A DNA stretch of 64,000 bases. Origin: Tildeniella torsiva UHER 1998/13D (lineage in GTDB: Bacteria > Cyanobacteriota > Cyanobacteriia > Phormidesmidales > Phormidesmidaceae). Positions 38,827 to 55,947 of the stretch are shown piece by piece. Made by a program: the position numbers and the translations under genes. The stretch is taken from assembly GCA_019358835.1 (NCBI GenBank), contig JAHHIH010000018.1, forward strand, positions 1 to 64,000, written 5' to 3'. Positions within the stretch are counted from its first letter, which is position 1. The number at the start of each line of letters is the position of its first letter. Under the pieces are notes generated by a model. It worked only from the letters and a program-made list of their open reading frames with translations, was not told the origin of the DNA and did no database searches.

Positions 38827-40731
38827 ATGCCTGAATATTTAGCCCCTGGTGTCTACGTTGAAGAAACCAGCTTTCGCGCCAAATCGATTGAAGGGGTCAG
38901 CACCAGCACTGCTGGCTTTGTGGGGCTGACCCGCCGGGGGCCAGTGGCTAACCCCGACAGCGGCAATAGCCCAGAACTGCTCACCAGCTTTGGCGACTTT
39001 GAGCGCATCTACGGCGGGCTAGACGGGCTCACCGTCACCCAGACCAGCGGCCAGGCGACGCTGCTCAACTACCTGGCCCACGGGGTGCGGGCGTTTTTCA
39101 ACGAGGGTGGGGCGCGGCTCTACGTGTCGCGGGTGTTCTTGGCCCCCCCGGCACCGGCTGGCGGCGGAGCCGGGGGGGCTGGCGGTGCGCCACCAGCGCC
39201 TACCGATGGCCGTGCCAGGGTAACGTTGACGGTGCCCGCTGCCGGGGGCGGCGCAGGTGGAGCCGGGGGTGGTGGTGGAGCTGGAGGAGCCGCTGCCGAG
39301 ACGATTGGCATCGTGGCGCGGTTTCCTGGGGCGGCCTACAACGGCACAATCAGTTTTCGGGCGGTGGAGGCTCCGGCCAGCGCCCGCACGATGGATACCG
39401 CTCCGGTGGGCACCCTGCTGCGGCTGGTGACTCCTGCGGCGGGGGGTGGGGCAGGCGGTGGGGCGGCAACCCCCACTACGGCCTACTACGTCAAGGGTGT
39501 GGCTGGCTTTGGGCGGGCCGATGGCGGCACCGACGGCACCTCTCCGTTCCCGTTTGATGACGAGGGCGCGACCAGGGCTTTCTTTCTCACCCTGAATGTG
39601 ATTACCGCCGATGTCGAGGGCAATGCCCTGGTGTACGAGGGGCTAGGCTTTGGCGACAACCATCCCCAGGCACTGGAGCAGGTGCTGGTGGCCGAGCCCA
39701 CCCGCCGCAGCGACCAGCTACAAAACCTCTATGCCGTCGATCTCAGCAGCGGCGTCAGCGGGTTTGAGCTGTTTCGCACCCTGTTTGAGAATGCGGCGCT
39801 GCTGGACGAGGAGGGCAACCGGGTGGTGAGCTTGACGGGGGGCACCGACGGCGGCGAACCCACCCAGGCCGCCTTTGAGGCCGCCCTGGCCGAGCTGGCC
39901 ATGGTGGAAGATATTTCGATTGTGGCCGCGCCGGGCTGTTCGGTGCTGACCGACTACAACGGTATTCAGGGGGCGCTAATTAGCCATGCCGAACAGCGTA
40001 AGGCCTACCGCAGCGCCATTCTAGACACGCCCCCCGAGCAAACCGTCACCGCAGCCCGCGAAATTAAAAGCCGCCTGGACTCTAAATACGCGGCCCTGTA
40101 CTTTCCCTGGGTGCGGGTGTCGAATCCGCTGTTTCGCCCCGGCGATGCCAGCATTCCGGCGGAGATCAGCCTGCCCCCCAGCGGCTTTATGGCGGGGATC
40201 TACGCCCGCAACGACATTGAGCGGGGGGTGTTTAAGGCCCCGGCCAACGAGGTGGTGCGCAGCGCCCTGCGGTTTGAGCGGGAGGTGAACTTTGCCGAGC
40301 AGGAATCGCTCAACCCCTTTGGCGTCAACTGCCTGCGGTTTTTTCCGGGGCGGGGCTACCGGGTGTGGGGGGCGCGCACCATCAGCTCTGACCCGGAGTG
40401 GAAGTATGTCAATGTGCGGCGCTACTTCAACTATTTGGAGCAGTCGATCGATCGCGGTACCCAGTGGGCGGTGTTTGAACCCAACGGTACCCGACTGTGG
40501 ACGAACGTGCGCGACACCATTGCCGCCTTTCTCTACAACGAGTGGATTACCGGGGCGCTGCTCGGCGCAACCCCCCAGGAGGCGTTTTTTGTGCGGTGCG
40601 ATCGCAGCACCATGACCCAAAACGACCTCGACAATGGCCGCCTGATCTGCCTGATTGGCGTGGCGGTGCTGAAGCCAGCAGAATTTGTCATCTTCCGCAT
40701 TGGCCAAAAGACAGCGGATGCGGCGGGCTAG
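38827..40731 (+). CDS. cis2: Contractile sheath protein (first of two)
   Basis: 634 residues. The start MPEYLAPGVYVEETSFRAKS and the C-terminal VRRYFNYLEQSIDRGTQWAV, then FFVRCDRSTMTQNDLDNGRL, are the classic phage-tail/Afp2 sheath signatures. The sheath contracts around the inner tube and drives it into the target. Residues about 107-156 and 205-220 are Gly/Ala/Pro-rich insertions (GGGAGGAGGAPPAP and the like) not seen in ordinary sheaths; they probably form surface loops. It has its own RBS (aaggagaag). Confidence 0.93.
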   Translation: MPEYLAPGVYVEETSFRAKSIEGVSTSTAGFVGLTRRGPVANPDSGNSPELLTSFGDFERIYGGLDGLTVTQTSGQATLLNYLAHGVRAFFNEGGARLYVSRVFLAPPAPAGGGAGGAGGAPPAPTDGRARVTLTVPAAGGGAGGAGGGGGAGGAAAETIGIVARFPGAAYNGTISFRAVEAPASARTMDTAPVGTLLRLVTPAAGGGAGGGAATPTTAYYVKGVAGFGRADGGTDGTSPFPFDDEGATRAFFLTLNVITADVEGNALVYEGLGFGDNHPQALEQVLVAEPTRRSDQLQNLYAVDLSSGVSGFELFRTLFENAALLDEEGNRVVSLTGGTDGGEPTQAAFEAALAELAMVEDISIVAAPGCSVLTDYNGIQGALISHAEQRKAYRSAILDTPPEQTVTAAREIKSRLDSKYAALYFPWVRVSNPLFRPGDASIPAEISLPPSGFMAGIYARNDIERGVFKAPANEVVRSALRFEREVNFAEQESLNPFGVNCLRFFPGRGYRVWGARTISSDPEWKYVNVRRYFNYLEQSIDRGTQWAVFEPNGTRLWTNVRDTIAAFLYNEWITGALLGATPQEAFFVRCDRSTMTQNDLDNGRLICLIGVAVLKPAEFVIFRIGQKTADAAG

Positions 40732-40813: not shown

Positions 40814-41272
40814 ATGGCGCGTACCCATCCCTATCCAGCGTTTAATTTTTTGGTGAATCTAAACGGCCCGATTGGGCCAGAGGAGATACTGGGCGGCTTT
40901 TCTGACGTGTCGGGGCTGGGGGCGGAGGTCACCATCGCCGAATATCGCAACGGCAACGAGAAGGAGAACCGGGTGCGGAAGGTGGCGGGGGTCTACAAAG
41001 CCAGCGATGTCACCCTGAAGCGGGGAGTGGTGGATTCCTCTGACCTGTGGGCCTGGTTTGACGACACCCGCCGCAACGGCCCCGAGGCCCAGCGGGAGGT
41101 GGTGATTACCCTGCGCGACGAAGCGGGCAACGACATTCAGGCCTGGAAGCTGCGCGGGGTGGTGCCAATGAAGTACACCGCCCCCACCTTTGCAGCCAAG
41201 GGCGGCGGCGATCTGGCCCTCGAAGAACTGGTGTTGTCGGCTGAGAGCATTGAGTTCGAGAAGGCAGGCTAG
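40814..41272 (+). CDS. cis1: Inner tube protein (first of two, gp19/Hcp-like)
   Basis: 152 residues beginning MARTHPYPAFNFLVNLNGP, followed by GGFSDVSGLGAEVTIAEYRNG, TLKRGVVDSSDLWAWFDDTR, VVITLRDEAGNDIQAWKLRG and a closing LVLSAESIEFEKA. These are the standard blocks of the phage-tail tube family found in contractile systems. Subunits stack into the rigid tube that carries effectors. An RBS (aggaggttt) precedes the ATG. Its family name in the antifeeding prophage is Afp1/Afp5. Confidence 0.92.
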   Translation: MARTHPYPAFNFLVNLNGPIGPEEILGGFSDVSGLGAEVTIAEYRNGNEKENRVRKVAGVYKASDVTLKRGVVDSSDLWAWFDDTRRNGPEAQREVVITLRDEAGNDIQAWKLRGVVPMKYTAPTFAAKGGGDLALEELVLSAESIEFEKAG

Positions 41273-41276
41273 ACCC

Positions 41277-42884
41277 ATGAACCGGCTGATTTTTCAAACT
41301 CAACCTCCGGCCCTGGCGCCCCACCCCAACCGGGCAGATATCGCCTGCTTTGTGGGCTTTGTGGGCCGTCGCCCTACCCCCCTGCCAGGGGTGATGCAGC
41401 AGTGGCTGGTGGACCAGGGCTGGGGGCAGCCGCCCTACGGCCGGGCCGGGGCGCTGGGGATGGCCGAGAGCCCGCCCAGTCTGCTGGATGTGCCGGTACC
41501 GATCGACAGCTGGTCAACCTTTGACTACCTGTTTGCCTGGGATCAGCGCCCGGTCAGCCCCGATGGGGCGCTGCGGGGGGGCACCTACCTGGGGGCGGCG
41601 GTGCGATCGTTTTTTGCCCAGGGAGGGCAGCGCTGCTACGTGGTGCGGGTGGGTGACCCCTGGCCGTTCAACGCTCCCCGTGAACAGCGGCTCAACCAGA
41701 TCGAACGGCTGGTGCCGGGCTATCGGCCCCAATCACGCAGTCTGTTTAGCGGTTCGCCCAGCGATCGCGGCAGTTGGCACGGGGTCGGTCACCTGTTTGG
41801 CCTGCCGGATGTGGCGTTTTTGGGCCTGCCCGACCTGGCCGATGGGGTGGCTGCCGATCGCCCCGCCCTGCCGACCCAGTCGCCCGTTGCCGAGGAAGAT
41901 CTACCAGAAACCTTTGTGGTCTGCTCTGACCCCGCCCCGGCCCCGCCCCCGGACAGCGGGGTGCGCCAGCTGCCCGCGCCCCGCTGCGATGGGCTGGGCT
42001 ACGGGGAATGGGTGCGATCGCTGCACCTAGTTGCCTCCCTGCTAGAACGGCACCAGCACCAGGGCAGCCTGCGCCCGGTGCAGCTGGTGGCGGCGATTCC
42101 TCTGCCCCTGGCGGGCACTCCGGCAGAGCAGGACCTCTGGGCCGTGCTGGGGGACGATAGCGCGCCGGGGCTGACCACCGACCCCGCCGATGACGGCATT
42201 GCCAGCCGGTTTGTGCAGCTGGTGTATCCCTGGGTGCGCACCCCCGGCTCTGCGGCCCTGCCGGAACAACTGGAGAGTCCCGAGGGGCTGCTGATCGGCC
42301 TGCTGGCCCGCAATGCCCTCAGCCGGGGCACCTATCGCGGTGCCGCCAACAGCGCTTTGGGCGATGTTTTCAGCGTGGTGCCGCTGCTCTCCCAGCGCCA
42401 GCAGTGGGCCGTCCAAGGGGCAATCGGTCGCCGGAGCCGCGCCCTGATCGACCGGGTTTCGCTACTGGGGCCTACCCCCGACGGGCTGCAACTGCTGTCC
42501 GATGTCACCACCAGTCTGGATGAGCGCTACCGCCCCGCCAGCGTCAACCGGCTGGTGGCGGGGCTGATTCGCGCCGCCCGCCAGCTGGGGGAAGAGCTGG
42601 TGTTTGAAGCCTCGGGCGAGTACCTGTGGATGCGGCTGGAGGAAAGTCTGGACGGGCTGTTGCAGAGCCTATTCGCTGCGGGGGCGCTGCGGGGCACGAC
42701 CGCCGCCGAGGCCTATGGGGTGCGCTGCGATCGCACCACCATGACTCAAAACGACCTCGACCATGGCCGAGTCATTGCCCAGATGCAGATCAATCCGGCC
42801 CTGCCGGTCGAGCAAATCACCGTCGTGCTGGCCCTCAACGACAGCGGCCAGCTGCTCGCCCTGGGGCAACAGGAGGCCGCATGA
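41277..42884 (+). CDS. Sheath-family protein (second copy, divergent)
   Basis: 535 residues from ATG 41277; the longer frame upstream overlaps the tube gene and is unlikely. The C-terminus GVRCDRTTMTQNDLDHGRVI matches the sheath family; the rest is less typical: the N-terminus ADIACFVGFVGRRPTPLPGV lacks the usual APGVYVEE start. Antifeeding prophages also carry several different sheath proteins (Afp2-4), used at different heights. This one probably forms a special ring, for example beside the baseplate. Starts four bases after the tube gene stop. Confidence 0.85.
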   Translation: MNRLIFQTQPPALAPHPNRADIACFVGFVGRRPTPLPGVMQQWLVDQGWGQPPYGRAGALGMAESPPSLLDVPVPIDSWSTFDYLFAWDQRPVSPDGALRGGTYLGAAVRSFFAQGGQRCYVVRVGDPWPFNAPREQRLNQIERLVPGYRPQSRSLFSGSPSDRGSWHGVGHLFGLPDVAFLGLPDLADGVAADRPALPTQSPVAEEDLPETFVVCSDPAPAPPPDSGVRQLPAPRCDGLGYGEWVRSLHLVASLLERHQHQGSLRPVQLVAAIPLPLAGTPAEQDLWAVLGDDSAPGLTTDPADDGIASRFVQLVYPWVRTPGSAALPEQLESPEGLLIGLLARNALSRGTYRGAANSALGDVFSVVPLLSQRQQWAVQGAIGRRSRALIDRVSLLGPTPDGLQLLSDVTTSLDERYRPASVNRLVAGLIRAARQLGEELVFEASGEYLWMRLEESLDGLLQSLFAAGALRGTTAAEAYGVRCDRTTMTQNDLDHGRVIAQMQINPALPVEQITVVLALNDSGQLLALGQQEAA

Positions 42885-43399
42885 TTCCCGCCGAGGTCAA
42901 AGAAAACAGCCTATATCCCCTGCATGTCTTTCGGTTCCACGTCGATTTTCAGACCGACCCGCTGGTGCCGGGCCAGGCCACGCCCGTGACCCTGTGCGGC
43001 GGCGCGTTTTCAGAATGCACCGGCCTGGAGGCCACCATGGAACCCAAGGAAATTAAGGAGGGGGGCCGCAACTACGGCTCGGCCCAGCGGGCGGGCCAGG
43101 TCACCTTTGCCACAGTCATTCTCAAGCGGGGCATGACCACCACCCGCGACCTCTGGACCTGGTTTGAGCTGGTCAGCGAACAAGCGGGCTACGCCTACCG
43201 CCTGGCGGCCATCATTCGCCTGTACGACAACCAGGGCAACCAGCGCCTGGCCTGGAAGCTCGACAAGGCCCTGCCGATCAAGTTTAAGGCTGCCGATCTC
43301 AACGCCAAGGGCTCGGATGTGGGCATCGAAGAACTGCATCTGGCCCACGAGGGGCTGCACTTGTTCAATCGCAGTAGCACCGGGAAGGAACGGCAATGA
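42881..43399 (+). CDS. Inner tube protein (second copy, Afp5-like)
   Basis: 172 residues from ATG 42881. Same blocks as the first tube protein in altered form: LYPLHVFRFHVDFQ, GAFSECTGLEATMEPKEIKE, GGRNYGSAQRAGQ, ILKRGMTTTRDLWTWFE and DVGIEELHLAHEGLHLF. It is longer at both ends and probably forms the first tube ring at the baseplate, as Afp5 does; this is inference from family order. Overlaps the second sheath gene by ATGA and the next gene by ATGA. Confidence 0.88.
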   Translation: MIPAEVKENSLYPLHVFRFHVDFQTDPLVPGQATPVTLCGGAFSECTGLEATMEPKEIKEGGRNYGSAQRAGQVTFATVILKRGMTTTRDLWTWFELVSEQAGYAYRLAAIIRLYDNQGNQRLAWKLDKALPIKFKAADLNAKGSDVGIEELHLAHEGLHLFNRSSTGKERQ

Positions 43400-44544
43400 C
43401 CGCAACAATCGCACTCACCAAGGCCGTGTTTACCGTCCAGAGCGGCACCCACAGAGACACTACAGTGGATGTCCACTTCAACCCGGTGTCATTGCAGTAC
43501 GCCGTCTCCAACACCCTGGAAGAAAAAGGCTCGGGCAACAGCAAGAAACAGTACGTCAGCCAGAGCAGCGGCAAACTGACCATGGATCTGGTGTTTGACA
43601 CCACCCACGACGGCTCTGACGTGCGCTCCGTCACCGACCAAATTGCCCAGTTTATGGAGCCCGACGCCCAAAAGGTGCCGCCCGTCGTTCTGTTTGAATG
43701 GGGCACCTACAAGTTTCAGGGCATGGTCGAATCCTACAAAGAAACCATCGACTTCTTTGCCCCCAACGGCGTGCCCCTGCGGGCCAGCGTCAACCTCACC
43801 CTGTCTCGCCAAGACAAGGTGTTTGAGCCCAGCAGCTACTCCAAATTTGATCAACAGGACGGGCTCACCCCCGATGCGGTGGATGTGCCCGCCGCCCCAG
43901 TCCCTGGGGCTTCGGGTGGAGGCCAAGATGCCACCGGCTTGGCCTCCCAGGCGGGTAACCCCCAGGCCGGGCGAGCCCTCGCCGCCGCCAACAGCCTGGA
44001 GAGCATGCGCTTCCCCAGCGGCCCGCTGACGGTGGATGCCTCGATTACCCTGGGGCCACCCGTGGCTTTCGCCAGCGGCGGAGCCGGGTTGAGTCTGGGG
44101 GCGGGGGGGGGAATTGGTCTAGGTGCTGGCATTGGCGGCGGCGCAGGATTCTCCGCCGGGGCCGGGATTGGCGGCAGTGCTGGATTCTCTGCCGGAGCCG
44201 GAGCCTCGGCTGGAGCTAGAGCGGGCTTTTCCACCGGAGCGAGCATTAGTGCCAGGGCCGGATTCTCTGCCGGGGCCTCTGTGGCCATTGGTGGACGGTC
44301 ATCAGCTGGGGTATCCGCCACGGGCGGAGCCTTTGCCGGGCTCAAGTCTGGCCGCAGCCGAGCCGCCGTCTCCCTCGACCCCAGCCGTTTGATGCCGCCC
44401 CCGCCTGCCGCCGGGGTCACCGCCGGAGCAGGAACCAGCTTCCAACTCGGCGGCCAGATCAGCGGTCAGGGCTCCAGCAGCCTGCGGGCCGATGTCGGGG
44501 CCGATGTAGACCTGCGATCGCGCATTCAATTTCAGGAGCGTTAA
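43396..44544 (+). CDS. cis7: Tube-initiator (Afp7/CIS_tube) protein with Gly/Ala-rich tail
   Basis: 382 residues. The first about 155 residues are the CIS tube domain (VDVHFNPVSLQYAVSNTLEE, KLTMDLVFDTT, VLFEWGTYKFQGMVESYKET, LRASVNLTLSRQDKVFEP). In relatives this domain is followed by a LysM-like peptide. Here the C-terminal part instead is a Gly/Ala/Ser-rich repeat of the form GFSAGAGIGGSA over about residues 220-305. Such tails are flexible or fibrous; function unknown. Overlaps the previous gene by ATGA. Confidence 0.8.
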   Translation: MTATIALTKAVFTVQSGTHRDTTVDVHFNPVSLQYAVSNTLEEKGSGNSKKQYVSQSSGKLTMDLVFDTTHDGSDVRSVTDQIAQFMEPDAQKVPPVVLFEWGTYKFQGMVESYKETIDFFAPNGVPLRASVNLTLSRQDKVFEPSSYSKFDQQDGLTPDAVDVPAAPVPGASGGGQDATGLASQAGNPQAGRALAAANSLESMRFPSGPLTVDASITLGPPVAFASGGAGLSLGAGGGIGLGAGIGGGAGFSAGAGIGGSAGFSAGAGASAGARAGFSTGASISARAGFSAGASVAIGGRSSAGVSATGGAFAGLKSGRSRAAVSLDPSRLMPPPPAAGVTAGAGTSFQLGGQISGQGSSSLRADVGADVDLRSRIQFQER

Positions 44545-44752: not shown

Positions 44753-45838
44753 ATGCCCGAAACCCCCCTCACCCCCACCGCCGTCTACAGCGCCCGCCCC
44801 ACCATCCGGGTCGATAACCAGGCCTTTGCCAAGGTCAGCGAGCTGCTGTTGACGATGGAAATGACCGAGCAGCTCGGGGGCCTCTCGACCCTGGAGCTGC
44901 GGTTTAGCAACGTGGCCAGCGCGCCCGAGGGGGAGGCCGACCTGGCCTTTGAGGACGATCAGATCTTGACTCTGGGGGCGGCGATCGCGGTCTACGGCGG
45001 CGACGAAACCGCCCCCCAGGAACTCTTCCAGGGCACGATTACGGGGTTGGAAACTGACTTTGGCGAACAGGCCCCGCCTGAGCTGGTGGTGCTGGCCGAA
45101 GACGCCTGCCAGCTGGCTCGGCTCCAGCGACGCACCCAGGTCTACGACAGCCTCACCCTGGCCGACCTGGCGACCCAGGTGGCCCAGCGCCTCAGCCTCA
45201 CCCCGGTAGTGACGGGGCTAACCGATGCGATCGGCACCTGGGTGCAGCTCAACGAGAGCGACCTGGCCTTCATGCGGCGAATTTTGGCCCGCTACGACAG
45301 CGATGTGCAGGTGGTGGGCCGCGAGCTGCATGTGTCGCCCCGAGCCGACGTGCGCCGGGGGGAGGTTGAGCTGGCGCTGCACAGTCAGCTGCGCCAGGCC
45401 AAGGTGCTGGCCGACCTGGCCCACCAGGTCACCGAAGTCACCGTCACCGGCTGGAACCCCGAGCGGGGCCAGCGGGTGTCGGGCACCAGCCGGGGCGATG
45501 CCCTGGGGCCGGGACGAGGCAGTCTGGGCAGCCAGGTTTTGCGCCAGGCTTTGGGCGAACGTCCCCACCACCTGGGCCATCTGGCGGTGGCGACCGATGC
45601 CGAAGCCCAGGCGATCGCCGCCGCCGCCTTTGACGCCCGCGCCCGGCGATTTGTCACCGTGCTGGGCACCGCCGAGGGCAACCCGGCCCTGCGGGTGGGC
45701 ACCCACGTCACCCTCACCGGCCTGGGCGATCGCTTCGACAACAGCTATTACGTCGTGTACACCTGCCACCGGTTTGATGTGGCCAAGGGCTACGAGACCG
45801 AGTTTGAAGCCGAAAGCGCCTACTGGGGAGGACAATGA
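44753..45838 (+). CDS. Spike hub (gpD/gp27-like, VgrG N-terminal type)
   Basis: 361 residues of the phage late-control D family. IRVDNQAFAKVSELLLTMEM and YDSLTLADLATQVAQRLSLT followed by WVQLNESDLAFMRRILARYD (the Q.NESDL.F motif typical of VgrG/gpD) and RFVTVLGTAEGNPALRVGTHVTLTG at the C-terminus. It joins the tube to the spike. In Pvc8 hub and spike are one polypeptide; here they are two adjacent genes. Preceded by a C-rich leader of about 40 bases (44713-44752). Confidence 0.87.
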   Translation: MPETPLTPTAVYSARPTIRVDNQAFAKVSELLLTMEMTEQLGGLSTLELRFSNVASAPEGEADLAFEDDQILTLGAAIAVYGGDETAPQELFQGTITGLETDFGEQAPPELVVLAEDACQLARLQRRTQVYDSLTLADLATQVAQRLSLTPVVTGLTDAIGTWVQLNESDLAFMRRILARYDSDVQVVGRELHVSPRADVRRGEVELALHSQLRQAKVLADLAHQVTEVTVTGWNPERGQRVSGTSRGDALGPGRGSLGSQVLRQALGERPHHLGHLAVATDAEAQAIAAAAFDARARRFVTVLGTAEGNPALRVGTHVTLTGLGDRFDNSYYVVYTCHRFDVAKGYETEFEAESAYWGGQ

Positions 45839-46536
45839 TGCCGCTGCCAACGCTATTTGACCTACCCACACCGGGCCGCACCGAGGGCTGCCATCTGGCC
45901 GAGGTGGTGTCGGTGCAAGACCCCCAGAGCCTGGGCCGCGTTCAGGTGCGGCTGCTCAGCCGCGACGGGGTCGGCCAGCAGGATGGGCCGATGTGGGCTA
46001 GGGTGGCCACGCCCGTAGCAGGCAACAACCGGGGGGCGTTTCTGCTGCCCGATGTGGGCGATGAGGTGCTGGTGGACTTTGTCCAGGGCGACAGCCGTTT
46101 CCCGATTGTGATGGGCGGGCTGTGGAACGGGAATGCCCCGCCGCCTGAAACTCTGGGTGGTTCTGGAGCCCAGGTCGATCGCTGGACCCTGGTGGGCAAG
46201 GCGGGCACCCGCATCGCCATCGTAGAAGAGACCCCCGACCAGGCCACGATTTCCTTTACGACGCCCGGCGGGGTGAGCGGCACCCTGACCGACGGCGGCG
46301 GCGGCCAGGTGGAGTTTCAATCGGCGGGCACCACCGTCACCATCGACCCCCAGGGGGTGTCGGTGCAGACGCCGTCAACGGTTAAGGTGCAGGCCAGCCA
46401 GGTGGAGATCACCTCGGGCCAGGTGACCGTCAACGCCGCCCTGTCAAACTTTGCCGGCATCGTCAAATGTGACGTGCTCCAGGCCACGACTGTGATTGCA
46501 TCCACCTACACGCCGGGGGCTGGCAACATATGGTGA
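45835..46536 (+). CDS. Spike protein (gpV/gp5 OB-fold type)
   Basis: 233 residues. The OB-fold VVSVQDPQSLGRVQVRLLSR followed by PMWARVATPVAGNNRGAFLLPDVGDEVLVDFVQGD and PIVMGGLWN is the Phage_base_V signature. The C-terminal third (VTIDPQGVSVQTPSTVKVQA and so on) has the Val/Thr repeat of a trimeric beta-helix needle ending in TYTPGAGNIW. No PAAR tip gene is visible in the window. Start is one of two adjacent ATGs at 45835 and 45838; the stop overlaps the next gene by 7 bases. Confidence 0.87.
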   Translation: MMPLPTLFDLPTPGRTEGCHLAEVVSVQDPQSLGRVQVRLLSRDGVGQQDGPMWARVATPVAGNNRGAFLLPDVGDEVLVDFVQGDSRFPIVMGGLWNGNAPPPETLGGSGAQVDRWTLVGKAGTRIAIVEETPDQATISFTTPGGVSGTLTDGGGGQVEFQSAGTTVTIDPQGVSVQTPSTVKVQASQVEITSGQVTVNAALSNFAGIVKCDVLQATTVIASTYTPGAGNIW

Positions 46537-48281
46537 CCCATCCTCATCCCATTCTGGTGCGCGGTGCTCTGGGCGATCGCCCCGGCCCCGCCATTCTGCA
46601 GCGCACCGACCAAGACGTGATTGGGGCACTGCTGGCGGAGCTGGTGCGTCCCGGCTGCCTGGCCAGCGTGGCCCAGACCCTGGCCCAGGAAACCAGCGGC
46701 GACCAGCTCAAGCTCTACCAGCCGGTGCATCGGGTGTTTCACCTGGTGCTGCTGGAGGTAGTGTGCGACTCCTTTGGCACCGGGTCGCCCAACCCCTACC
46801 AGCCCCGGCTCGACCCCAACCGCATCGACAGCGCCGGGCTGGTGCTGCGGCGCTATGTCGGCGACCCCGGCGATTCCGGAACGGATGCTCGTTCTGAGTC
46901 GGTTCCCGTTTCTGAGATGCCGCAGGCATTACGCTTCGCGAATCGCCAGCTGGAGGGCTGGCGCACCCTGGCTCAGCCCCCGACGGCCAACACCACCGCC
47001 CTGCGGGGCTGGATTCGCTTCAACACTTCGGGCGACAATCCCCTGGCAATTCCGACCGACAGCGACCTGACCATGGACCCTGACCCCCAGCGGCGGCGGC
47101 CCCGGCTACCCCTCAAAACCGGGCAGGCCGAACTCGATCGCGACCTGGCCCAGACCTCCCTGATGCGGCTGGCGGCAGAAACGCTGTCAGAGCATACCTC
47201 ACCCCTATTTGTCGCGCCACCAAACGTGTGTGAAGCCCTGGGCAAGACCCTGCTCTACGGCCTAATTCCCCTCACCAGCCAGGAATTTAGCGAGATTCAG
47301 AACCCGGAGCAGGCCTTTCCGGCAGAGTTTGTGCAACAGCATCTGCCGCCCTACCTGCGATCGGGCAGCGCAGCGGTGCCCCGCCCCGGTCAGGGTTTGA
47401 CCGGGCGACAGGTGGCGGCGATCGCCGACCCCAACGAGAACCCCAGTTCTAGTGCAGAGGCTCGGCTAGACTACGCCCTGATTCAGGCCTACGTGGGCTT
47501 TCTGCGCCAGCTTCAGGGGGAATTTGAGGCCTTTAGCGATCGCGCCGATGCCCGCGCCCTCTACGGTCTGCTCAACCAGATTGCCCTGCCCTACGCCGAC
47601 GGCGGCGATTCCGGAACGGATCGCTTCGCGAATCGCCCCGCCGGGGAGGCCCTAAAGGAAGCCGCCGCCCGGCTGCTCGATTCCCAGAGCAGCGTGCCCG
47701 TGGCGATGCCGGTGGGCTGGCCCCCTTTGACCGCCAGCCTCAGTGACCAGATCGCTCAGCAGGTCAAAGCCATTCTCGATCGGCGGCTGCGGGCCTCAGC
47801 CCCCCAGGAGGGCCGCTTCGATGACCTCGACCGGGTCTACCAGATCTGCGCCTTTGTGCGGGTCAAGACAGAGGATGGCTGCCCGGCCAAACTGCACTGG
47901 AGCGCCCCCAGCCCCACCTTTACGCTGGCCCGCTGGTACGACAACAGCCCGGTGCCCCCCGTGCAGGTGGCCCTGCCCGACCTGCTGGGCAAAGACCGCG
48001 AATCGGCCCTGCAAACCCTTAAGCCCAACGTCACCTTTGCCGTGCCCGCCGGGCTGTTTAACGCCCTCGACGGCATGACCCTGCAAGATTTGCTCGACGG
48101 CAAAAAGCCCTCCGGCAGCGGCCCGGCCCTCGACTGGATCTGCGGCTTCAACATTCCGATCATCACCCTGTGCGCCTTTATCGTGCTGAACATCTTTTTG
48201 CAGCTGCTCAACTTCATCTTCCAGTGGCTGCTGTTTATCAAGATCTGCATTCCCATTCCCAAACTCGGCGGCGAGGAGTAA
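46530..48281 (+). CDS. Unknown baseplate-block protein with hydrophobic C-terminus
   Basis: 583 residues. I do not recognise the family. The first 530 residues are soluble and mixed alpha/beta (RRYVGDPG, GKTLLYGLIPLTSQEFSEIQ, YALIQAYVGFLRQLQGEFEA). The last 50 contain one long or two short hydrophobic helices (ICGFNIPIITLCAFIVLNIF then LQLLNFIFQWLLFIKICIP), ending IPIPKLGGEE. It lies between spike and gp25 genes, where a membrane anchor of thylakoid-attached systems would fit. The coding sequence is interrupted twice by GGCGATTC...GAATCGCC palindromes, read in frame. Confidence 0.7.
   Translation: MVTHPHPILVRGALGDRPGPAILQRTDQDVIGALLAELVRPGCLASVAQTLAQETSGDQLKLYQPVHRVFHLVLLEVVCDSFGTGSPNPYQPRLDPNRIDSAGLVLRRYVGDPGDSGTDARSESVPVSEMPQALRFANRQLEGWRTLAQPPTANTTALRGWIRFNTSGDNPLAIPTDSDLTMDPDPQRRRPRLPLKTGQAELDRDLAQTSLMRLAAETLSEHTSPLFVAPPNVCEALGKTLLYGLIPLTSQEFSEIQNPEQAFPAEFVQQHLPPYLRSGSAAVPRPGQGLTGRQVAAIADPNENPSSSAEARLDYALIQAYVGFLRQLQGEFEAFSDRADARALYGLLNQIALPYADGGDSGTDRFANRPAGEALKEAAARLLDSQSSVPVAMPVGWPPLTASLSDQIAQQVKAILDRRLRASAPQEGRFDDLDRVYQICAFVRVKTEDGCPAKLHWSAPSPTFTLARWYDNSPVPPVQVALPDLLGKDRESALQTLKPNVTFAVPAGLFNALDGMTLQDLLDGKKPSGSGPALDWICGFNIPIITLCAFIVLNIFLQLLNFIFQWLLFIKICIPIPKLGGEE
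46869..46947 (+). repeat. Palindrome-ended insert, long copy
   Basis: GGCGATTCCGGAACGGAT starts and CTTCGCGAATCGCC ends the 79-base segment. The ends are inverted (GGCGATTC / GAATCGCC). It lies inside the gene at 46530 and is translated (GDSGTDARSESVP to ALRFANRQ). Confidence 0.6.
47604..47637 (+). repeat. Palindrome-ended insert, short copy
   Basis: A 34-base copy that begins and ends with the same words as the segment at 46869 (GGCGATTCCGGAACGGAT, CTTCGCGAATCGCC) but lacks its interior. It is translated as GDSGTDRFANR in the same gene. Confidence 0.65.
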
Positions 48282-48285
48282 CCCC

Positions 48286-48678
48286 ATGTCTATCCCATCT
48301 CCCATTGCCACTGGCTGGCCCCTGCTGCCCCGGCCCGACGCCCAGGGGCAGATGCACTACCCCAACCTCGAGACCAGTGTTCGCCAGACGATCGAGGTGA
48401 TTTTGCGCACCCGGCCAGGGGAACAGCTGATGCGCCCCGACTTTGGGGCCGGGCTGGAGCGGTTTTTGCAGGAGCCCAACCTGCTGGTCACCCGCCGCCG
48501 CATCCAAAACCTAATTACCGAATCGCTCCAGCGCTGGGAAACCCGGATTTTGATTCACCGGGTCGAGGTGGAGGAACTGCCCGACCAGCCCACCCACATT
48601 CGCATCGAAATTCTCTACCAGATCAAGCGGACGGGGGCGGCTCACCGTCTGGGGTTGACCCTACAGTTGGAGGAGTAA
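48286..48678 (+). CDS. cis9: Baseplate wedge protein, gp25-like
   Basis: 130 residues of the GPW/gp25 family: VRQTIEVILRTRPGEQLMRP, FGAGLERFLQEPN, TRRRIQNLITESLQRWETRI and HRVEVEELPDQP. The RTRPGEQLMRPDFG segment corresponds to the conserved EPR-type region. It helps anchor the sheath to the baseplate. It is 4 bases after the stop of the upstream gene and 3 bases before the next, confirming an operon. Confidence 0.92.
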   Translation: MSIPSPIATGWPLLPRPDAQGQMHYPNLETSVRQTIEVILRTRPGEQLMRPDFGAGLERFLQEPNLLVTRRRIQNLITESLQRWETRILIHRVEVEELPDQPTHIRIEILYQIKRTGAAHRLGLTLQLEE

Positions 48679-48681
48679 GCC

Positions 48682-50904
48682 ATGCCCATTCAGCCCCCTG
48701 CCCTTGACGATCGCGACTTTGCCGACCTGGTAGAGGAACTGCTGGCCCGGGTGGCGGCCCACACCCCCGAGTGGAGCCCCCGGCTGGGCGATCCGGGGCG
48801 CACCATGATCGAGCTGTTCGCCTGGCTGGTGGACACCCTGCTGTATCGCGCCAACCTGATTCCAGAACGGCAGCGGCTGGCGTTTTTGCGGCTGCTGGGC
48901 CTGCCCCTCAAGGCGGCAGTGCCCGCGACGGGGCTGGTCACCCTCGGCCTTGATGAGGCCAACGCCCGCGCCGCCGTCACCCTGAGGGCTGGGGCGCGGG
49001 TCAAGGGGCCAGTGATGTTTGAAACCCGAGGCGAAATCACCGTGCTGCCAGTGACGGCGATGGCCTTTTACAAGCGGGATCTGGACCGGACCGAGACGGC
49101 CCCGGTGAGCCTGGCCCTGAAGCAGGATCTCAAAACCGTCTACCAGCTGGCGGCCGACCCGGCGGCGATTCGCCCCTACGCCACCACCGCCATTTTTGCC
49201 GGGGGCACCCCGGTGTCCGGCGGCTTCGACCTGATCGAGCAAACGGTGGATCGCTGCCTGTGGCTGGCCCTGCTCGCCCCCCAGCCCGAACTGGTGGAGA
49301 CCGTGCGGATTGCCCTGGGCCGCAGCGAAACCGGCGATGCGCCGTTGCTCAACGTGGGCGTGGTGCCGCTGATCGAGATGCCCGCCCTGTTCGAGGATGT
49401 TGGCCCCCGTGCACGGCTGCCCTACCAGTGGGAAATCTGCACCGGGCGAGAGCGCGATGGCCGGGCCGAATACCTGCCCCTGACGGAGGTAGCCGACACC
49501 AGCGGCGGTCTCACCCGCCTCGGGGTACTGCGGCTGGAGCTGCCCGCCCCTGGCTTTATTGGCGCGTTGAGCAACGATGGCCAGGCGGTGACGGTGGCCG
49601 GAGTGGGCGATCGCCCGCCCCGCCTTGACGATGCCAAAACCGCCGCCCGCTTGGTGACCTGGATTCGCCTGCGGCCCACGGCCGACCTGTCGACCTTTGC
49701 CCTCAGCTGGGTGGGCATTAACGCCGTCGCCATCGACCAGCGGCTGACCAGCGGCGGCCAGATCATTGGCCAGAGCGATGGCCGAGCCGGGCAAGAATTT
49801 GCGCTGCCGGGGCAGTCGGTGGAGGCCGACTCGCTCCAGCTCCAGGTGGAAGAGCCGGGGCTGGGCTACCGGCTGTGGCGACAGGTAGATGACCTGGCCC
49901 TGGCCGATCGCGACGATGCCGTCTACAGCCTCGACGCCGAGGCCGGGCTGGTGCGCTTTGGCGACAATGTGCGGGGCCGCATTCCCGAAGTGGGTATGCG
50001 GATTCGGGTGGGGCAGATGCGGGCCGGGGGGGGCCGGGCAGGCAACCTGCCGGGCGGGTCACTGAGCGACATTGCCGCCCTCGACTTGCAGGGCAACCCG
50101 GTGCCAAAGCTGAAGCTGTGGCAGCCCCTAGCCACCAGCGGCGGCGAAGACCCGGAGGATCTGGCGGCGGCGGAACAGCGGATTCCGGCCCAGCTGCGCC
50201 ACGGCGATCGCGCCGTGACCGAGGGCGACTACCAGCGCCTCGCCGCCGACACCCCCGGCATTGCTGCCGGGCGGGTCGAGGTGCTGCCCCGGTTCAAACC
50301 CCAGCAGCGTCGCTCGGAGGTGCCTGGGGTGGTCTCGGTGATGGTCTGGCCCCAAAAAGGCACCCCTAAGCCGCCCAATCCCCGCCCCGATCGCCCCTTT
50401 CTGGAGGCGGTCTTTGCCCAGCTCGACCGCCGCCGCCCCCTGGGCACCGAGTTGTACGTGATTGGCTGTGAGTACCGCCCCCTGGGTCTCACGGTGGGGG
50501 TCGAACTCCAGGACGGGGCGCGGCGCGACAGTGTGCTCCAGGCGATTCGCCAGGCACTGCACCAGTTTCTCTGGCCCCTGGCCCCAGGGGATGTGGGTGG
50601 CCAGGGCTGGCGGCTGGGCAAAACCGTGCGCGATCGCGAGCTGGAGGTAATTGTGGCGCGGGTCGATGGGGTGCGCAGCGTCGCCCAGGTGAAGCTGTTT
50701 GAGCAACTGGACGGCGGCTGGCGCAAGCTCCAGCGGGCCGACAACCCCAACCTGAGCGAGCTGTCCCTCGATCCCTGGCAGCTGCCCGAGCTGCTGGCGG
50801 TGGTGGTCATTACTGACGGCGACGCCCCCGATACGCTGGAAACCCCGCTCAGCCCCGCCGCCGATGCCGTGGTCGCCGTACCCGTCGTGGCGGAGGTGTG
50901 CTGA
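48682..50904 (+). CDS. cis11: Baseplate J-like wedge protein (Afp11 type)
   Basis: 740 residues. LGDPGRTMIELFAWLVDTLL and YRANLIPERQRLAFLRLLGL near the start, and PAQLRHGDRAVTEGDYQRLA followed by GRVEVLPRF, are the standard blocks of the putative baseplate assembly/J-like family. It forms the core of the baseplate wedge together with the gp25-like and gpI-like proteins. The protein is slightly shorter than Afp11 relatives of around 900 residues but shows no break. Stop and next start overlap as TGATG. Confidence 0.9.
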   Translation: MPIQPPALDDRDFADLVEELLARVAAHTPEWSPRLGDPGRTMIELFAWLVDTLLYRANLIPERQRLAFLRLLGLPLKAAVPATGLVTLGLDEANARAAVTLRAGARVKGPVMFETRGEITVLPVTAMAFYKRDLDRTETAPVSLALKQDLKTVYQLAADPAAIRPYATTAIFAGGTPVSGGFDLIEQTVDRCLWLALLAPQPELVETVRIALGRSETGDAPLLNVGVVPLIEMPALFEDVGPRARLPYQWEICTGRERDGRAEYLPLTEVADTSGGLTRLGVLRLELPAPGFIGALSNDGQAVTVAGVGDRPPRLDDAKTAARLVTWIRLRPTADLSTFALSWVGINAVAIDQRLTSGGQIIGQSDGRAGQEFALPGQSVEADSLQLQVEEPGLGYRLWRQVDDLALADRDDAVYSLDAEAGLVRFGDNVRGRIPEVGMRIRVGQMRAGGGRAGNLPGGSLSDIAALDLQGNPVPKLKLWQPLATSGGEDPEDLAAAEQRIPAQLRHGDRAVTEGDYQRLAADTPGIAAGRVEVLPRFKPQQRRSEVPGVVSVMVWPQKGTPKPPNPRPDRPFLEAVFAQLDRRRPLGTELYVIGCEYRPLGLTVGVELQDGARRDSVLQAIRQALHQFLWPLAPGDVGGQGWRLGKTVRDRELEVIVARVDGVRSVAQVKLFEQLDGGWRKLQRADNPNLSELSLDPWQLPELLAVVVITDGDAPDTLETPLSPAADAVVAVPVVAEVC

Positions 50905-53900
50905 TGGATGCCAACGGCCAGCGCTTCTGGATGCTGTCGGAGGAGAAACAGTGGACGCCCCTGGGCAATCCTGCGGGGGTGGAGTACGACGCTGCCCGAC
51001 GTCGCCTGCGCTTGGCCAGCCAGCGCCGTCTGCCGATCTGGGCCAACCGCTGGGGTCTTGAGGTGGTGCTGCCTTCGGCGGCAGTCAGCCCCCGCCTTTA
51101 CTTTACGGTGGCCGCCGCCACCCCAGCGCCGCTGCAAATTACCGCTCTGGCCCCCGCCCTGCTGCGCCGCACCAGCAGTCCTCAAACCCTGACCCTGACC
51201 GGACGCGGCTTTCAGCGCGGGGCGCTGCTGACGGTGGGCTTTCCCGATGGCCGCTACACCAGCCGCAGTGGCCTCACCCTCGCCGCTCCGTCCGCCCCTG
51301 ACGAGATCGACTTGGACGAGACGATGCTGACCGTGGACCTGACCCTGACCCAGGCCGGGCCCTGGTCGCTGCGGCTTACCAACCCCGACGGCAGCCAGAG
51401 CCCGACGTTTCATTTCACCGTGCTGCCCGCCCCCGCCGCTGCCGTAGAAATCACCGGCCTGAGCCCGGCCTCCCCCAGCTTTAGCGCTGCCGCCCAGACC
51501 CTGATGGTCTCGGGCCAGGGCTTCCAGGCAGGAATGCGGGCCGTGCTGCACCTGCCCGGCGGCGCGGTGGCGATCCCAGCGGATCAGCTCCAGGCGGTTA
51601 CCGCCACCAGCTTTAGCTTCGACCTCGACATCAACGCCCTGGCGCTCGAAGTGGCCCAGCGCTGGCTAAACCAGGTGCCCCAGACCCGCGATCGCTTCGA
51701 CACCCGCGCCTACTGGCAACCCGACGAGCGGCGGGTGGTGGGCACCGGGGCCCTGCCGGGGGAGGTGGGTATTTACCTGCCTCCGGCCAACCAGGTGCCG
51801 ACCGACCTGGCCATGGGCTACGACGGCATTCTCTACCTGGCCCTCTCTGGAGCCAGTGCCGAGGCCGGGGCCGACAGCGGCCAGCTGGTGATGGTCGATC
51901 GCCGCGATCGCTGGTCTCCCTACACCATCCCGCTGCCGGAAGGGTTCCGGCCCTGGCGGCTGGCAGCGGCCCCCGAGGGCGGCGTCTGGGTGCTCGATCG
52001 CCCCACGGCCCTGGGCCAGCCCCGCCAGCTGGGGCGGGTGACGGGCTATCCTCTGCCCGATCGCGCCCAGCGGCCCTACAGCGCCGACACCTTTCGCCCC
52101 TGCAACGAAAATCGCCAGCCGCCTCGGCTGAGCGTCATCTGGGCCGGAACGCTTGACGCCGGGGAGGACCCCGTGGCCCTGGCCTGTAGCGCCGAGGGGC
52201 GGCTGGCCCTGCTGAGCTGGGTCTCGGGGGAAGCCGCTCGGGTGCGATTGGCCTTCGGCCACCCGGCGGGAACGCTGCGCCCCGACCATCGCTGGAGCCC
52301 GCCCCTGGTGCTGCAAGGGGCCGACTACCCCTATAGCCTCACCTGGCTGAGCGCCGAGCGCCTGGCGCTGCTGCTGCCGGGGTTGACCACCGAAGCGCCA
52401 GTCTACCCCTGGCTGAATATCGAGGGCGATCGCGCCGCCAATTCCACCGCTGGGCCGACCCCCGACCCCATTACCGTGGCCCCCACCGGCCAAATCTATC
52501 CCCTCAACGCCTACGACGGCGGCCCTTTCCTCCACGGCGTCACCCTGCCGCCCCACTATCCCACCCGCGAGGGCAGCTATCCCCTCCATGCCCTGTCGCT
52601 GCAAGCCTATAGCGAGCAGGGCATGGCCGAGGGGCAGCTGCCGATTGACAGCGGCAGTACCCAAACCGTCTGGCACCGGCTCTACCTGGAGGCGGTGCTG
52701 CCCGCCAACAGCGGCCTGCGCGTCTTTCTGGCCGCCAGCGACGAGGTCGCCCACCCCCCCCGCTGGCCCCAGGACTGGTTCGAGCACCGCCTGGGCGATC
52801 GCTTTGCCCCCGGCGTCACCCCCTATGCCGACCCCAGCGCCCAGGGAGATAGCGATCCAACCCTCGCCCGGCAGATTCCGTGCGGGGCCTGGGTCTCTAG
52901 CCCGTCGGAGCTGTCCTACCATCCCGGCCTGCTGCCCTGTGCCCCAGAACCCAACCGCAGCGGTCTGTTTACGGTGCTGGTGCAGCGGGCCGGGCGGCAG
53001 GTGCGATCGCTCCAGGGCCGCTACCTGTGGGTGCGCCTAGAACTGCTGGGGGATGGTCGCTCGACCCCCGAACTGGCTGCTCTGAGGGTCTACGGCTCGC
53101 GCTTTTCTTACCTCAACCGCTACCTGCCCAGCCTGTACCACGAAACCCAGTTTGGCCCCGATGCCGACGCCCCCGGCCCCAGCACCGCCGCCGACTTTCT
53201 AGAGCGCTTTCTCGACAACTTTGAGGGCCTGCTCACCCCCCTCGAAGACCGGATTGCCAATGCCTACCTGCTCACCGACCCGCGCACGGTGCCCGAACCC
53301 GGCCTCGACTGGCTGGGCAGCTGGATTGGCCTCAGCCTGGATGCCACCTACCCACCTGATCGCCGCCGCGCCCTGCTTGAGGCCACCCCAGCACTCTACC
53401 GCCAGCGGGGCACCCTCAACGGCCTCAAACAGGCCCTCAATGTAGCCACCAACGGTGCCGTTGACAGCGGCGAAATCGTGGTGCTCGAAGACTTTCGCCT
53501 GCGCCGCACCTTCGCCACCATTCTGGGGGCCGACCTGGCCGACGAGACCGACCCGCTGCTCCAGGGCCTCGCCGTCAGCGGCAACTCTTTCGTTGGCGAC
53601 ACCCTGGTGCTGGGGGATGAAACCCAGCGCGAATTCCTGGCCCTGTTTCGGCCCTTGCTGCCTGCCGAGGGGGCCACCAGCGCTGACCAGGTGGCTGACC
53701 AAGCGGTGGATGAGGCCGCGATCGCCGCTTTCTTTGACACCCTGGCTTACCGGGTCACCGTCTTCGTCCATCAGCAGGTGGAACCCCAGGATCTAGGCCT
53801 GGTGCGCCGCATCACCGCCCTCGAAACCCCTGCCCACGTGCTGGCCAAAGTCGTCACCGCCAGCCGTCCCTTCATGGTCAGCCTGGCTGCTCTGGTGGGG

Positions 53901-54188
53901 GTCGATACCTACCTCAGCGCCAACCCCCCTGTCGGCCCCGTCACCGTCGACCAGAGCATCCTCGGCCTCAACGATGTCATCCAGCGCCCCCCCAGCCTCG
54001 ACCCCCGCCTAATGGGCGGCTTCGACCCCAGCCAAGACGACGCCCGCTACCCCCTAGCCCAGGGGCGGGCCCCCGCCGCCGTTCCCCCTGATCAACCCTT
54101 TCTGCTCGATGCCTCCCTCTCCCAAGCCTTCGCTGGCCGCCGCATCGATCGCTACCGCTGGACCCTCCTCGGCACCCTCCCCCCCTAG
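50904..54188 (+). CDS. cis12: Large tail protein: Ig-like (IPT/TIG) repeats plus phage gpI-like domain
   Basis: 1,094 residues from ATG 50904. Residues about 75-255 carry two IPT/TIG-like beta domains (LTLTGRGFQRGALLTVGFPD and LMVSGQGFQAGMRAVLHLPG). A middle part resembles a beta-propeller or NHL fold (PTDLAMGYDGILYLALSG, GGVWVLDRPTA). Residues about 750-930 are a phage tail protein I-like domain (FLERFLDNFEGLLTPLEDRI, PEPGLDWLGSWIGLSLDATY, LYRQRGTLNGLKQALNVATN). The end (FLLDASLSQAFAGRRIDRYR) starts a PKD-like domain that is cut off by the stop. Ordinary gpI proteins are about 200-500 residues, so this is much enlarged, probably to act as receptor-facing or fibre support. Confidence 0.85.
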   Translation: MDANGQRFWMLSEEKQWTPLGNPAGVEYDAARRRLRLASQRRLPIWANRWGLEVVLPSAAVSPRLYFTVAAATPAPLQITALAPALLRRTSSPQTLTLTGRGFQRGALLTVGFPDGRYTSRSGLTLAAPSAPDEIDLDETMLTVDLTLTQAGPWSLRLTNPDGSQSPTFHFTVLPAPAAAVEITGLSPASPSFSAAAQTLMVSGQGFQAGMRAVLHLPGGAVAIPADQLQAVTATSFSFDLDINALALEVAQRWLNQVPQTRDRFDTRAYWQPDERRVVGTGALPGEVGIYLPPANQVPTDLAMGYDGILYLALSGASAEAGADSGQLVMVDRRDRWSPYTIPLPEGFRPWRLAAAPEGGVWVLDRPTALGQPRQLGRVTGYPLPDRAQRPYSADTFRPCNENRQPPRLSVIWAGTLDAGEDPVALACSAEGRLALLSWVSGEAARVRLAFGHPAGTLRPDHRWSPPLVLQGADYPYSLTWLSAERLALLLPGLTTEAPVYPWLNIEGDRAANSTAGPTPDPITVAPTGQIYPLNAYDGGPFLHGVTLPPHYPTREGSYPLHALSLQAYSEQGMAEGQLPIDSGSTQTVWHRLYLEAVLPANSGLRVFLAASDEVAHPPRWPQDWFEHRLGDRFAPGVTPYADPSAQGDSDPTLARQIPCGAWVSSPSELSYHPGLLPCAPEPNRSGLFTVLVQRAGRQVRSLQGRYLWVRLELLGDGRSTPELAALRVYGSRFSYLNRYLPSLYHETQFGPDADAPGPSTAADFLERFLDNFEGLLTPLEDRIANAYLLTDPRTVPEPGLDWLGSWIGLSLDATYPPDRRRALLEATPALYRQRGTLNGLKQALNVATNGAVDSGEIVVLEDFRLRRTFATILGADLADETDPLLQGLAVSGNSFVGDTLVLGDETQREFLALFRPLLPAEGATSADQVADQAVDEAAIAAFFDTLAYRVTVFVHQQVEPQDLGLVRRITALETPAHVLAKVVTASRPFMVSLAALVGVDTYLSANPPVGPVTVDQSILGLNDVIQRPPSLDPRLMGGFDPSQDDARYPLAQGRAPAAVPPDQPFLLDASLSQAFAGRRIDRYRWTLLGTLPP

Positions 54189-54903: not shown

Positions 54904-55899
54904 ATGAGCCACCCCACCCGCTCCACCGACCCCCTCAGCGCCGGGCCAGAGTCCCCCGATCGCGCCTTTCCCGATCGCCTGTTCTACGCGCCGGGGGTAC
55001 TGCTCGATGCAGTCGATCTCCAGGCCGAACAGCTCTACCACCGGGGCCGCCTGGCCAGAGCCCTGGCCTACCTCCACGGCCACGGCACAGTGTCGGGCTT
55101 GCGGGTCATCTGGCAGCCCCCCTTGGCCCCCGGCGATCGCGACCCCGAAACCGACCGCGAGTATCCCGACGGTCGCGAAGAGCACCTGCTGGTGCAGCCC
55201 GGCTTGGCGATCGATCGCCTGGGCCGCCTAATCGAGCTGCCCCGCGCCGCCTGCCTGCGCCTCAACCGCTGGTTTGAGCAGCAGCAGAGCCAGCCCGAAG
55301 AGCTGGTGCAGAGCTTTCACCCTCAGCCCGACACCGCCGCCGCCGACACCGCCATTGGCCGCGCCGACCCCCCCGCTAACACCCCCCTGACGGTCAGCGC
55401 AGCGGCGGGCGGCGTGGTGGTCGATGTCTTTCTGCACTTTCACCTCTGCGAAACCGGCAAAACCCCCGCCTTTGCCGCTGGCCCCTTCGACGCCACCGAT
55501 GCCGCCGTGCCCGCCCGCCTGCGCGACGCCTACGAGCTACAGCTCGTGCTGCGCCAGGAAGCCACCGTTGACCTGGCCGCCAACCTGCCCCAGAGCCCCT
55601 GGGCCAGCGCCACCGACCTGACCCAGCTCCAAACCGCAATGTTCGACAGTTGGCAAGAAGACACCGCCGACTGGGATGCCCAGGGCCGCCCCGTGCCCCT
55701 GCCCGAGCACACCACCAACCAAGACACCACCGCCGTCTTTTTGGCCCGCCTGCTGCTGCCCGCCGTCCTCGACGCCAGCGGCCTGCCCCAGCGCACCGCC
55801 GCACCGGTTCAAATCGACAACCACAGCCGCTGCTTTGTCTACCCCACCGGCCTCCTCACCCGCTGGCTCCAGATCCTCACCCCCCCCACCGACGAATAA
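54904..55899 (+). CDS. Unknown injection-system protein, family A member 1 (331 aa)
   Basis: The N-terminal part DRLFYAPGVLLDAVDLQAEQ and YHRGRLARALAYLHGHGTVSGLRV follows the same pattern as the starts of the next two proteins (see findings). The centre (GGVVVDVFLHFHLCET) looks beta-rich; the C-terminus ends PTGLLTRWLQILTPPTDE. There is no membrane helix. The position after tail proteins suggests a tail-fibre-base or cargo-related role, but this is inference. Preceded by a small gap of 22 bases. Confidence 0.6.
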   Translation: MSHPTRSTDPLSAGPESPDRAFPDRLFYAPGVLLDAVDLQAEQLYHRGRLARALAYLHGHGTVSGLRVIWQPPLAPGDRDPETDREYPDGREEHLLVQPGLAIDRLGRLIELPRAACLRLNRWFEQQQSQPEELVQSFHPQPDTAAADTAIGRADPPANTPLTVSAAAGGVVVDVFLHFHLCETGKTPAFAAGPFDATDAAVPARLRDAYELQLVLRQEATVDLAANLPQSPWASATDLTQLQTAMFDSWQEDTADWDAQGRPVPLPEHTTNQDTTAVFLARLLLPAVLDASGLPQRTAAPVQIDNHSRCFVYPTGLLTRWLQILTPPTDE

Positions 55900-55913
55900 C
55901 CCCCCATCTCCGT

Positions 55914-55947
55914 CAATTCAAAATTCAAAGTTCAAAACTCAAAACTT
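55914..55947. repeat. ATTCAAA-type heptamer STRR
   Basis: Near-perfect heptamers (CAATTCAAAATTCAAAGTTC and onward) in the short gap before the gene at 56015; typical short tandemly repeated repetitive sequence of cyanobacteria. A pyrimidine-rich stretch (55948-56008) follows. Confidence 0.7.

Follow-up and report, generated by a model that had tools for sequence, protein, structure and literature searches.

P0001, a 583-amino-acid protein encoded in a contractile injection system (CIS) cluster of the cyanobacterium Tildeniella torsiva UHER 1998/13D, is a real and conserved component of the baseplate block that carries a membrane-type helix and belongs to no database family. On balance, we favor the view that it is a membrane-docking baseplate subunit of an extracellular CIS (eCIS). 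The gene lies in a 64,000-nucleotide stretch of DNA (the window; GenBank assembly GCA_019358835.1, contig JAHHIH010000018.1, positions 1 to 64,000). An earlier reading of the letters alone, here called the original prediction, had proposed P0001 as a membrane anchor, perhaps of the thylakoid-attached cyanobacterial CIS type (tCIS). The membrane part of that proposal stands, with a conserved predicted 30-residue helix that is the sole membrane-type segment among the recognized structural proteins, and the thylakoid part does not. P0001 has the look of a general part for docking to or piercing membranes, shared with similar machines of bacteria that lack photosynthetic membranes. Its hydrophobicity, conservation, predicted helix, and synteny, and the lack of a membrane-type segment in the other recognized structural proteins, are directly supported by the data.

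46530..48281, + strand: P0001, 583 amino acids; family not named in databases; folded domain predicted at residues ~1-480, then a linker and the conserved C-terminal tail
48135..48260, + strand: conserved tail, residues 536-577, from sequence conservation across aligned relatives
48153-48242, + strand: predicted tail helix, residues 542-571, from the AlphaFold model of the C-terminal fragment

A conserved place in the baseplate block

The 583-amino-acid open reading frame (ORF) between spike and gp25 was confirmed, its neighbors being recognized as Phage_base_V (E 5e-23) and GPW_gp25 (E 4e-22). Across 91 loci, the next recognized gene upstream of P0001 is a spike or hub gene in 85 and the next one downstream is gp25 in 85; these counts include two repeat loci and rank genes by frame start, so that overlapping frames swap some of them, and 5 of the 91 have no recognized upstream gene.

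The first 530 residues had been said to match no known family, and the searches bear this out. P0001 has no family match in Pfam (E 1) or PHROGs (E 5), and nothing significant in NCBIfam, where a single chance row scored 14.5 bits against a cutoff of 303.9. Against PDB sequences, a 5-row profile reached E 0.27 at best, which is not significant, and a 51-row profile reached E 0.014 with an unrelated sperm microtubule protein. PADLOC returned no match. Searches of the open-access literature, in which a nameless family is hard to find by keyword and which leaves subscription papers outside its scope, turned up no description of the family. The whole-protein model (mean predicted local distance difference test score [pLDDT] 82.9) is folded to about residue 480. 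Foldseek of the P0001 model returned no hit from PDB or BFVD at E 0.001 or better, and VIA-align gave a best Z of 6.7, to complement C3, with immunoglobulin-like domains in most further rows, a level of low meaning.

The tail is a predicted single membrane-type helix

The original prediction described about 45 hydrophobic residues at the C-terminal end. Such a tail is present, and the length was slightly generous: the conserved stretch has 42 residues and the predicted helix 30. Hydrophobicity within the protein peaks in the tail, with a Kyte-Doolittle maximum of 2.44 at residue 542 (19-mer). The best 35-mer value, 2.11 and also at 542, was attained in 2 of 2,000 whole-protein shuffles (tail included). 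Residues 550 to 568 (19 residues) have a Wimley-White octanol sum of -17.0; the other tested cluster proteins in the window reach -6.2 at most (sheath 2, -2.2), and a 584-amino-acid protein just beyond the window reaches -7.8. On the same scales, the Cis13 protein of another cyanobacterial locus (L188) lies below P0001 (Kyte-Doolittle 2.18, Wimley-White -10.8).

AlphaFold modeling of residues 478 to 583 with 72 rows gave a single helix at 542 to 571 with block pLDDT of 90 to 93 in its core, in a fragment model that is weak overall (mean pLDDT 64.9; predicted template modeling score 0.34). We considered a transmembrane hairpin, since the 42-residue tail is long enough for two passes, and rejected it on the isolated C-terminal model, which is one helix. 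Twelve residues remain after 571, with no domain behind the membrane segment. A transmembrane-like segment was found in 87 of 87 loci with P0001 (80 of them chosen by tail patterns and so not independent) and in none of the 1,085 ORFs of 15 other cluster families; the thresholds were fixed after P0001 was seen, and the scan covered ORFs recognized by the window's proteins.

The tail is also the most conserved stretch of P0001. Against selection bias, relatives were collected with a tail-free profile, that is, a P0001 profile ending before the tail, its rows drawn from tail-selected members. The conservation set holds 38 relatives with the tail at the C terminus and leaves out one short form (G618), two internal forms (G599 and G638), and duplicate partial loci. 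In this set, mean column entropy is 0.80 bits in the tail versus 1.79 elsewhere, and the lowest-entropy 42-column window outside the tail has 1.15 bits. For the 576 pairs with less than 45% identity elsewhere, mean pairwise identity is 0.63 in the tail versus 0.28 outside. The tail codons of the window differ from those of four relatives (L002, L003, L004, and L026) by 13 to 18 synonymous differences and merely 1 to 4 amino acids, and from those of L029 by 7 synonymous differences and 11 amino acids. C538, W566, and C573 are invariant over the 72 aligned members, every one of which has N, D, H, or E at position 561. The tail is C-terminal in 38 of 41 genomes from the tail-free search and internal in 2 (L160, 9004-10728, + strand; L161, 8112-9833, - strand; both in the Myxococcota sample), where about 115 residues follow the segment. 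Natural variants are at hand in which the helix is terminal, internal, or absent.

Distribution of the family

A genome scan found 164 relatives, of which 80 loci were kept; the scan patterns were taken from the tail, so these 80 loci cannot show the tail to be universal, and two of them, L025 and L036, repeat genomes already found in the order of the window's genome (L002 and L003). A further seven relatives came from viral contigs, all within CIS-like clusters, and a phage collection yielded no P0001 homolog. The relatives come from Acidobacteria, Proteobacteria, Myxococcota, Verrucomicrobia, and Chloroflexota, many of them bacteria without thylakoids; hosts include Acidobacteria, Verrucomicrobia, Nitrospira, Myxococcus, Polyangium, Accumulibacter, Thauera, Variovorax, Sphingomonas, and Anaerolineae. 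The tail-free profile found the family in at least 31 of 193 Myxococcota, 7 of 301 Chloroflexota, and 3 of 398 Pseudomonadota genomes, each of these three samples containing one known positive. Up to 4 candidates were scored per cyanobacterial genome, 8 per Myxococcota, 5 per Chloroflexota, and 4 per Pseudomonadota genome, so absence is not proof; known members were recovered in 5 of 5 and 8 of 8 genomes. In the window genome's own order, the family occurs in 5 of 63 genomes; that search listed 11, and the 6 that matched only an interspersed repeat were dropped.

Two copies of this repeat lie within the P0001 gene:

46869..46947, + strand: interspersed repeat, 79 bp, ends GGCGATTC/GAATCGCC, in frame
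47604..47637, + strand: shorter form of the repeat, 34 bp, downstream of the 79-bp copy

Both insert residues that are not present in four aligned relatives, and the repeat has at least 22 matching places in the genome, the P0001 copy counted (40 of 51 candidates scored). Two further observations concern the family itself. A second subfamily (L107 to L111 and L009), from viral-collection contigs and one genome of the window's genus, has tails of type CSLSIPIITICALILL in longer proteins (659 to 698 amino acids). A Desulfacinum assembly has two loci (L085 and L086) with an identical tail on separate contigs, which may be a duplicated cluster or assembly redundancy.

The surrounding cluster is of eCIS type

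The genes around P0001 encode a contractile particle:

37236..37970, + strand: tail terminator (Pvc16_N), an eCIS hallmark; domain match
38827..40731, + strand: sheath 1; PDB sequence matches
40814..41272, + strand: tube 1 (Phage_T4_gp19); domain match
41277..42884, + strand: sheath 2; sheath-like by similarity to the sheath genes found in other loci, reading frame used to infer the start
42881..43399, + strand: tube 2 (Phage_T4_gp19); domain match, inferred start
43396..44544, + strand: tube-initiator-like protein (CIS_tube); domain match
44753..45838, + strand: hub (Phage_GPD); domain match
45835..46536, + strand: spike (Phage_base_V); domain match, E 5e-23
48286..48678, + strand: gp25-like wedge protein; GPW_gp25, E 4e-22, the sole gp25 match of the genome
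48682..50904, + strand: baseplate J-like wedge protein (Cis11-like); sole PDB match up to E 0.1, 9gtp
50898..54188, + strand: large protein with a Tail_P2_I domain; sole PDB match up to E 0.1, 9gtp_E
54904..63294, + strand: three cluster genes (54904, about 56126, and 57976); no informative Pfam match, recur beside the P0001 family

These last three genes recur next to P0001 relatives in many other loci. Just beyond the window, the cluster continues with an AAA+ ATPase (genome C1:65058-67013) and a 1,354-amino-acid eCIS_core (DUF4157) protein (C1:67041-71105; L164:4042-8106). The latter has membrane-type stretches around residues 874 to 925, a Wimley-White value of -10.2, and a Kyte-Doolittle maximum of 2.48, as high as that of P0001; it is a candidate cargo of the system.

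The published eCIS marker set is described as Pvc16_N plus an AAA+ ATPase, accompanied by genes for sheath, tube, hub, spike, and wedge proteins (PMC10020575). The cluster has Pvc16_N and the ATPase together with the structural genes, as well as a DUF4157/eCIS_core gene, and it carries the genome's only gp25 match and only eCIS_core match. Sheath 1 matches 8bky and 9gtp at E 4.5e-99, with the tCIS sheath 7b5h well behind (E 1.7e-49); as described, 8BKY and 9GTP were deposited by two Streptomyces CIS papers, and 9GTP is the Streptomyces coelicolor baseplate. Judged by these matches, the sheath and the J-type baseplate protein are closest to Streptomyces CIS and not to tCIS, and the cluster is best assigned to an eCIS lineage related to Streptomyces CIS.

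Proposed membrane role and its alternatives

How might P0001 act? We propose that it serves an eCIS-type system as a subunit of the baseplate block. Its folded domain (residues ~1 to 480) would attach to the particle close to the spike and to the gp25/J wedges, as gene position suggests. Its C-terminal helix (542 to 571) would insert in a lipid bilayer and link particle and membrane, either ahead of firing or while it takes place. The tail helices may form a small bundle, presumably in an oligomer, because one face has position 561, polar in 72 of 72 members, and the often-polar positions 554, 558, and 565. If P0001 does dock to a membrane, the producer's own (cytoplasmic or thylakoid, in the manner of CisA or Cis13) is somewhat ahead of the target's as the docking site; we hold this own-membrane version tentatively.

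Several observations weigh against this proposal. In the whole-protein model the tail is uncertain (pLDDT 40 to 55), with a helix at 544 to 560 at low confidence, and sequence conservation as strict as that of the tail is atypical of a plain lipid anchor. Within residues 544 to 570, the often-polar positions are 546, 554, 558, 561, and 565, the last four inside a 60-degree arc. The polar moment of the helix is reached by 443 of 20,000 permutations, a test made after the stripe was seen, and its Wimley-White moment is not significant (5,507 of 20,000 permutations reach the value), so the stripe is a modest hint only. The two internal forms, which are not among the 72 aligned members, keep C538 and C573, but position 561 is V in both and neither has W at 566, a departure that weakens the case for a bundle. 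The short form (L162, 7861-9018, - strand) has part of the folded domain without the helical insert and tail and keeps the gene position; its 18-kb region has no ORF of at least 100 amino acids passing the transmembrane thresholds. The flanking charges point the same way: the mean number of K+R is 2.90 from residue 571 on, whereas the 15 residues that precede 542 average 0.44, and the C-terminal side is the richer in 67 of 70 members. By the positive-inside rule, this basic end disfavors an N-terminal domain inside and a C-terminal end outside in the producer's membrane. The C-terminal end would instead be expected toward a cytoplasm. This suits a helix that enters a target from the outside more than it suits a cytoplasmic particle held at its own membrane.

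There is a second version of membrane docking, in which the tail is kept in the particle until firing and then driven C-terminal end first into the target membrane, where the tails may assemble round the spike path. The basic C-terminal end and acidic N-terminal flank fit insertion from outside with the end toward the target cytoplasm, and conservation over host phyla does not depend on the type of envelope that the producer has. However, short basic C-terminal ends occur in some bacterial tail-anchored proteins, so the pattern is not decisive; the target of the system is not known; and we know of no precedent in contractile baseplates for a tail driven into a target membrane. We consider this version unlikely. 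Still more doubtful is a fuller form of it, a previously undescribed coupling in which a ring of baseplate subunits would place its tail helices in the bilayer round the spike path, C-terminal end first into the target cytoplasm. Such a ring could be a docking collar or entry pore in a multiphylum eCIS lineage that has no Cis13-type anchor in the loci examined; the lack of a polar 561 in the two internal forms makes it slightly less likely still.

A serious rival, although a rather unlikely one, is that the tail never meets a membrane and is a buried structural helix, with three or six tails forming a hydrophobic bundle inside the particle, below the spike or between the wedges, to plug or staple the baseplate. 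The near-invariant C538, W566, and C573 and the polar 561 across the 72 members suit specific packing, P0001 is encoded in the baseplate block, and the tCIS spike cavity is described as plugged by three Cis6 copies (PMC8894136). Yet the helix is hydrophobic on nearly every face, with 22 of 27 positions (544 to 570) at most 3% polar, and no stretch of the other cluster proteins in the window comes near the tail in hydrophobicity. The short form, moreover, lacks the tail, yet its cluster retains hub, spike, gp25, and J. It is less probable again that P0001 is a membrane-tethered chaperone for baseplate building, absent from the finished particle. Membrane partners can be missing from solved particles, as CisA was reported not seen in the cryo-electron microscopy model of CIS-Sc (PMC12237407); against this, the P0001 gene is fixed inside the baseplate block, and another group reports that mass spectrometry of purified particles detected SCO4242 (CisA) (PMC10020575).

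A thylakoid anchor is disfavored

Three points speak for the thylakoid anchor of the original prediction: the host is a cyanobacterium, the cluster is the sole CIS of the genome by gp25 and eCIS_core, and P0001 has a C-terminal membrane-type helix by hydrophobicity and prediction. However, the tCIS anchor is described as the C-terminal helix of Cis13 together with a Cis12 extension (PMC8894136). P0001 and Cis13 are different, unrelated proteins, and the P0001 family is widespread in bacteria without thylakoids. Among 386 cyanobacterial genomes, Pvc16_N occurs in 39 and the P0001 family in at least 1, the window's own (best 4 candidates per genome scored); the two draws were equal in size, with matching genome labels where listed.

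The L188 locus makes the comparison direct. It encodes a Cis13 homolog (E 5.5e-51 to All3316 of 7b5h) after its large wedge gene, and between spike and gp25 it has a 97-amino-acid ORF only and no P0001. The original prediction had named relatives without the hydrophobic end in anchored systems as evidence against it, and the result goes further: the known anchored system lacks the whole protein. BLASTP of P0001 against the L188 Cis13 gave no match, and phmmer with that Cis13 over the window and the loci examined found only itself, hence no Cis13 in the window. Gene position differs too, P0001 lying in the spike-gp25 gap and Cis13 downstream of the large wedge genes. The P0001 family profile found nothing better than E 0.54 in ten cyanobacterial eCIS regions. 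In none of the four that show both spike and gp25 (L180, L184, L188, and L189) does P0001 lie between them; in the other six, the two do not appear together (region end, direction, or divergence). The distribution, the separate Cis13 anchor, and the Streptomyces-like sheath and J lead us to reject a thylakoid anchor as a tCIS part: P0001 is very unlikely to belong to tCIS, and we give its being the thylakoid anchor of that type hardly any credence. The CIS of this strain might nonetheless dock to thylakoid membranes.

Comparison with known systems

How particles meet membranes decides the mode of CIS action, and this encounter is described as poorly predicted from sequence alone (PMC12998442); the CIS of Roseiflexus are reported as unanchored (PMC12998442). 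Membrane proteins have been tied to CIS docking or firing elsewhere, namely Cis13 (PMC8894136), CisA, and Hbor_38620 (PMC11566945), and, as described, these proteins look unrelated. Cis13 (All3316 of the Anabaena thylakoid CIS, 7b5h), like P0001, is encoded by a structural gene of the CIS and has a transmembrane helix at its C-terminal end. Unlike P0001, it has 154 to 165 amino acids, is fibre-like, shares no sequence similarity, follows the large wedge gene in L188, and has no K/R after its helix, whereas the C-terminal end of P0001 is basic. Hbor_38620, the putative anchor of an archaeal type VI secretion system, is likewise described as conserved and as the putative membrane partner of one clade of CIS (PMC11566945), but with six predicted transmembrane helices and a gene upstream of the core cluster. 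The tape-measure-like CIS effectors Sle1 also have membrane helices and are proposed to reach a membrane after ejection (PMC13277306). By that description, they are encoded upstream of the sheath, with a long coiled coil and a predicted hairpin, whereas P0001 is encoded in the baseplate block and has one predicted helix.

CisA (SCO4242 of S. coelicolor) resembles P0001 in having a single membrane segment and in belonging to the CIS cluster with the closest solved sheath and baseplate relatives. Compared by its published description, it is largely unstructured in its N-terminal part, ends in a conserved domain in the periplasm, and has another gene position; P0001 has a folded N-terminal domain and 12 residues after the helix. 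The distant relatives L160 and L161, with about 115 residues after the segment, are nearer to CisA in layout. Six consecutive S. coelicolor genes, SCO4243 to SCO4248, appear from the published accounts to be Cis1b, 7, 8, 9, 11, and 12, and on that assignment the S. coelicolor CIS has no P0001 counterpart between spike and gp25. The P0001 family marks an eCIS lineage of several phyla, with no sequence counterpart in the PDB and none in the ten cyanobacterial eCIS regions, and it offers a single gene, helix, and conserved motif as targets for mutation or deletion.

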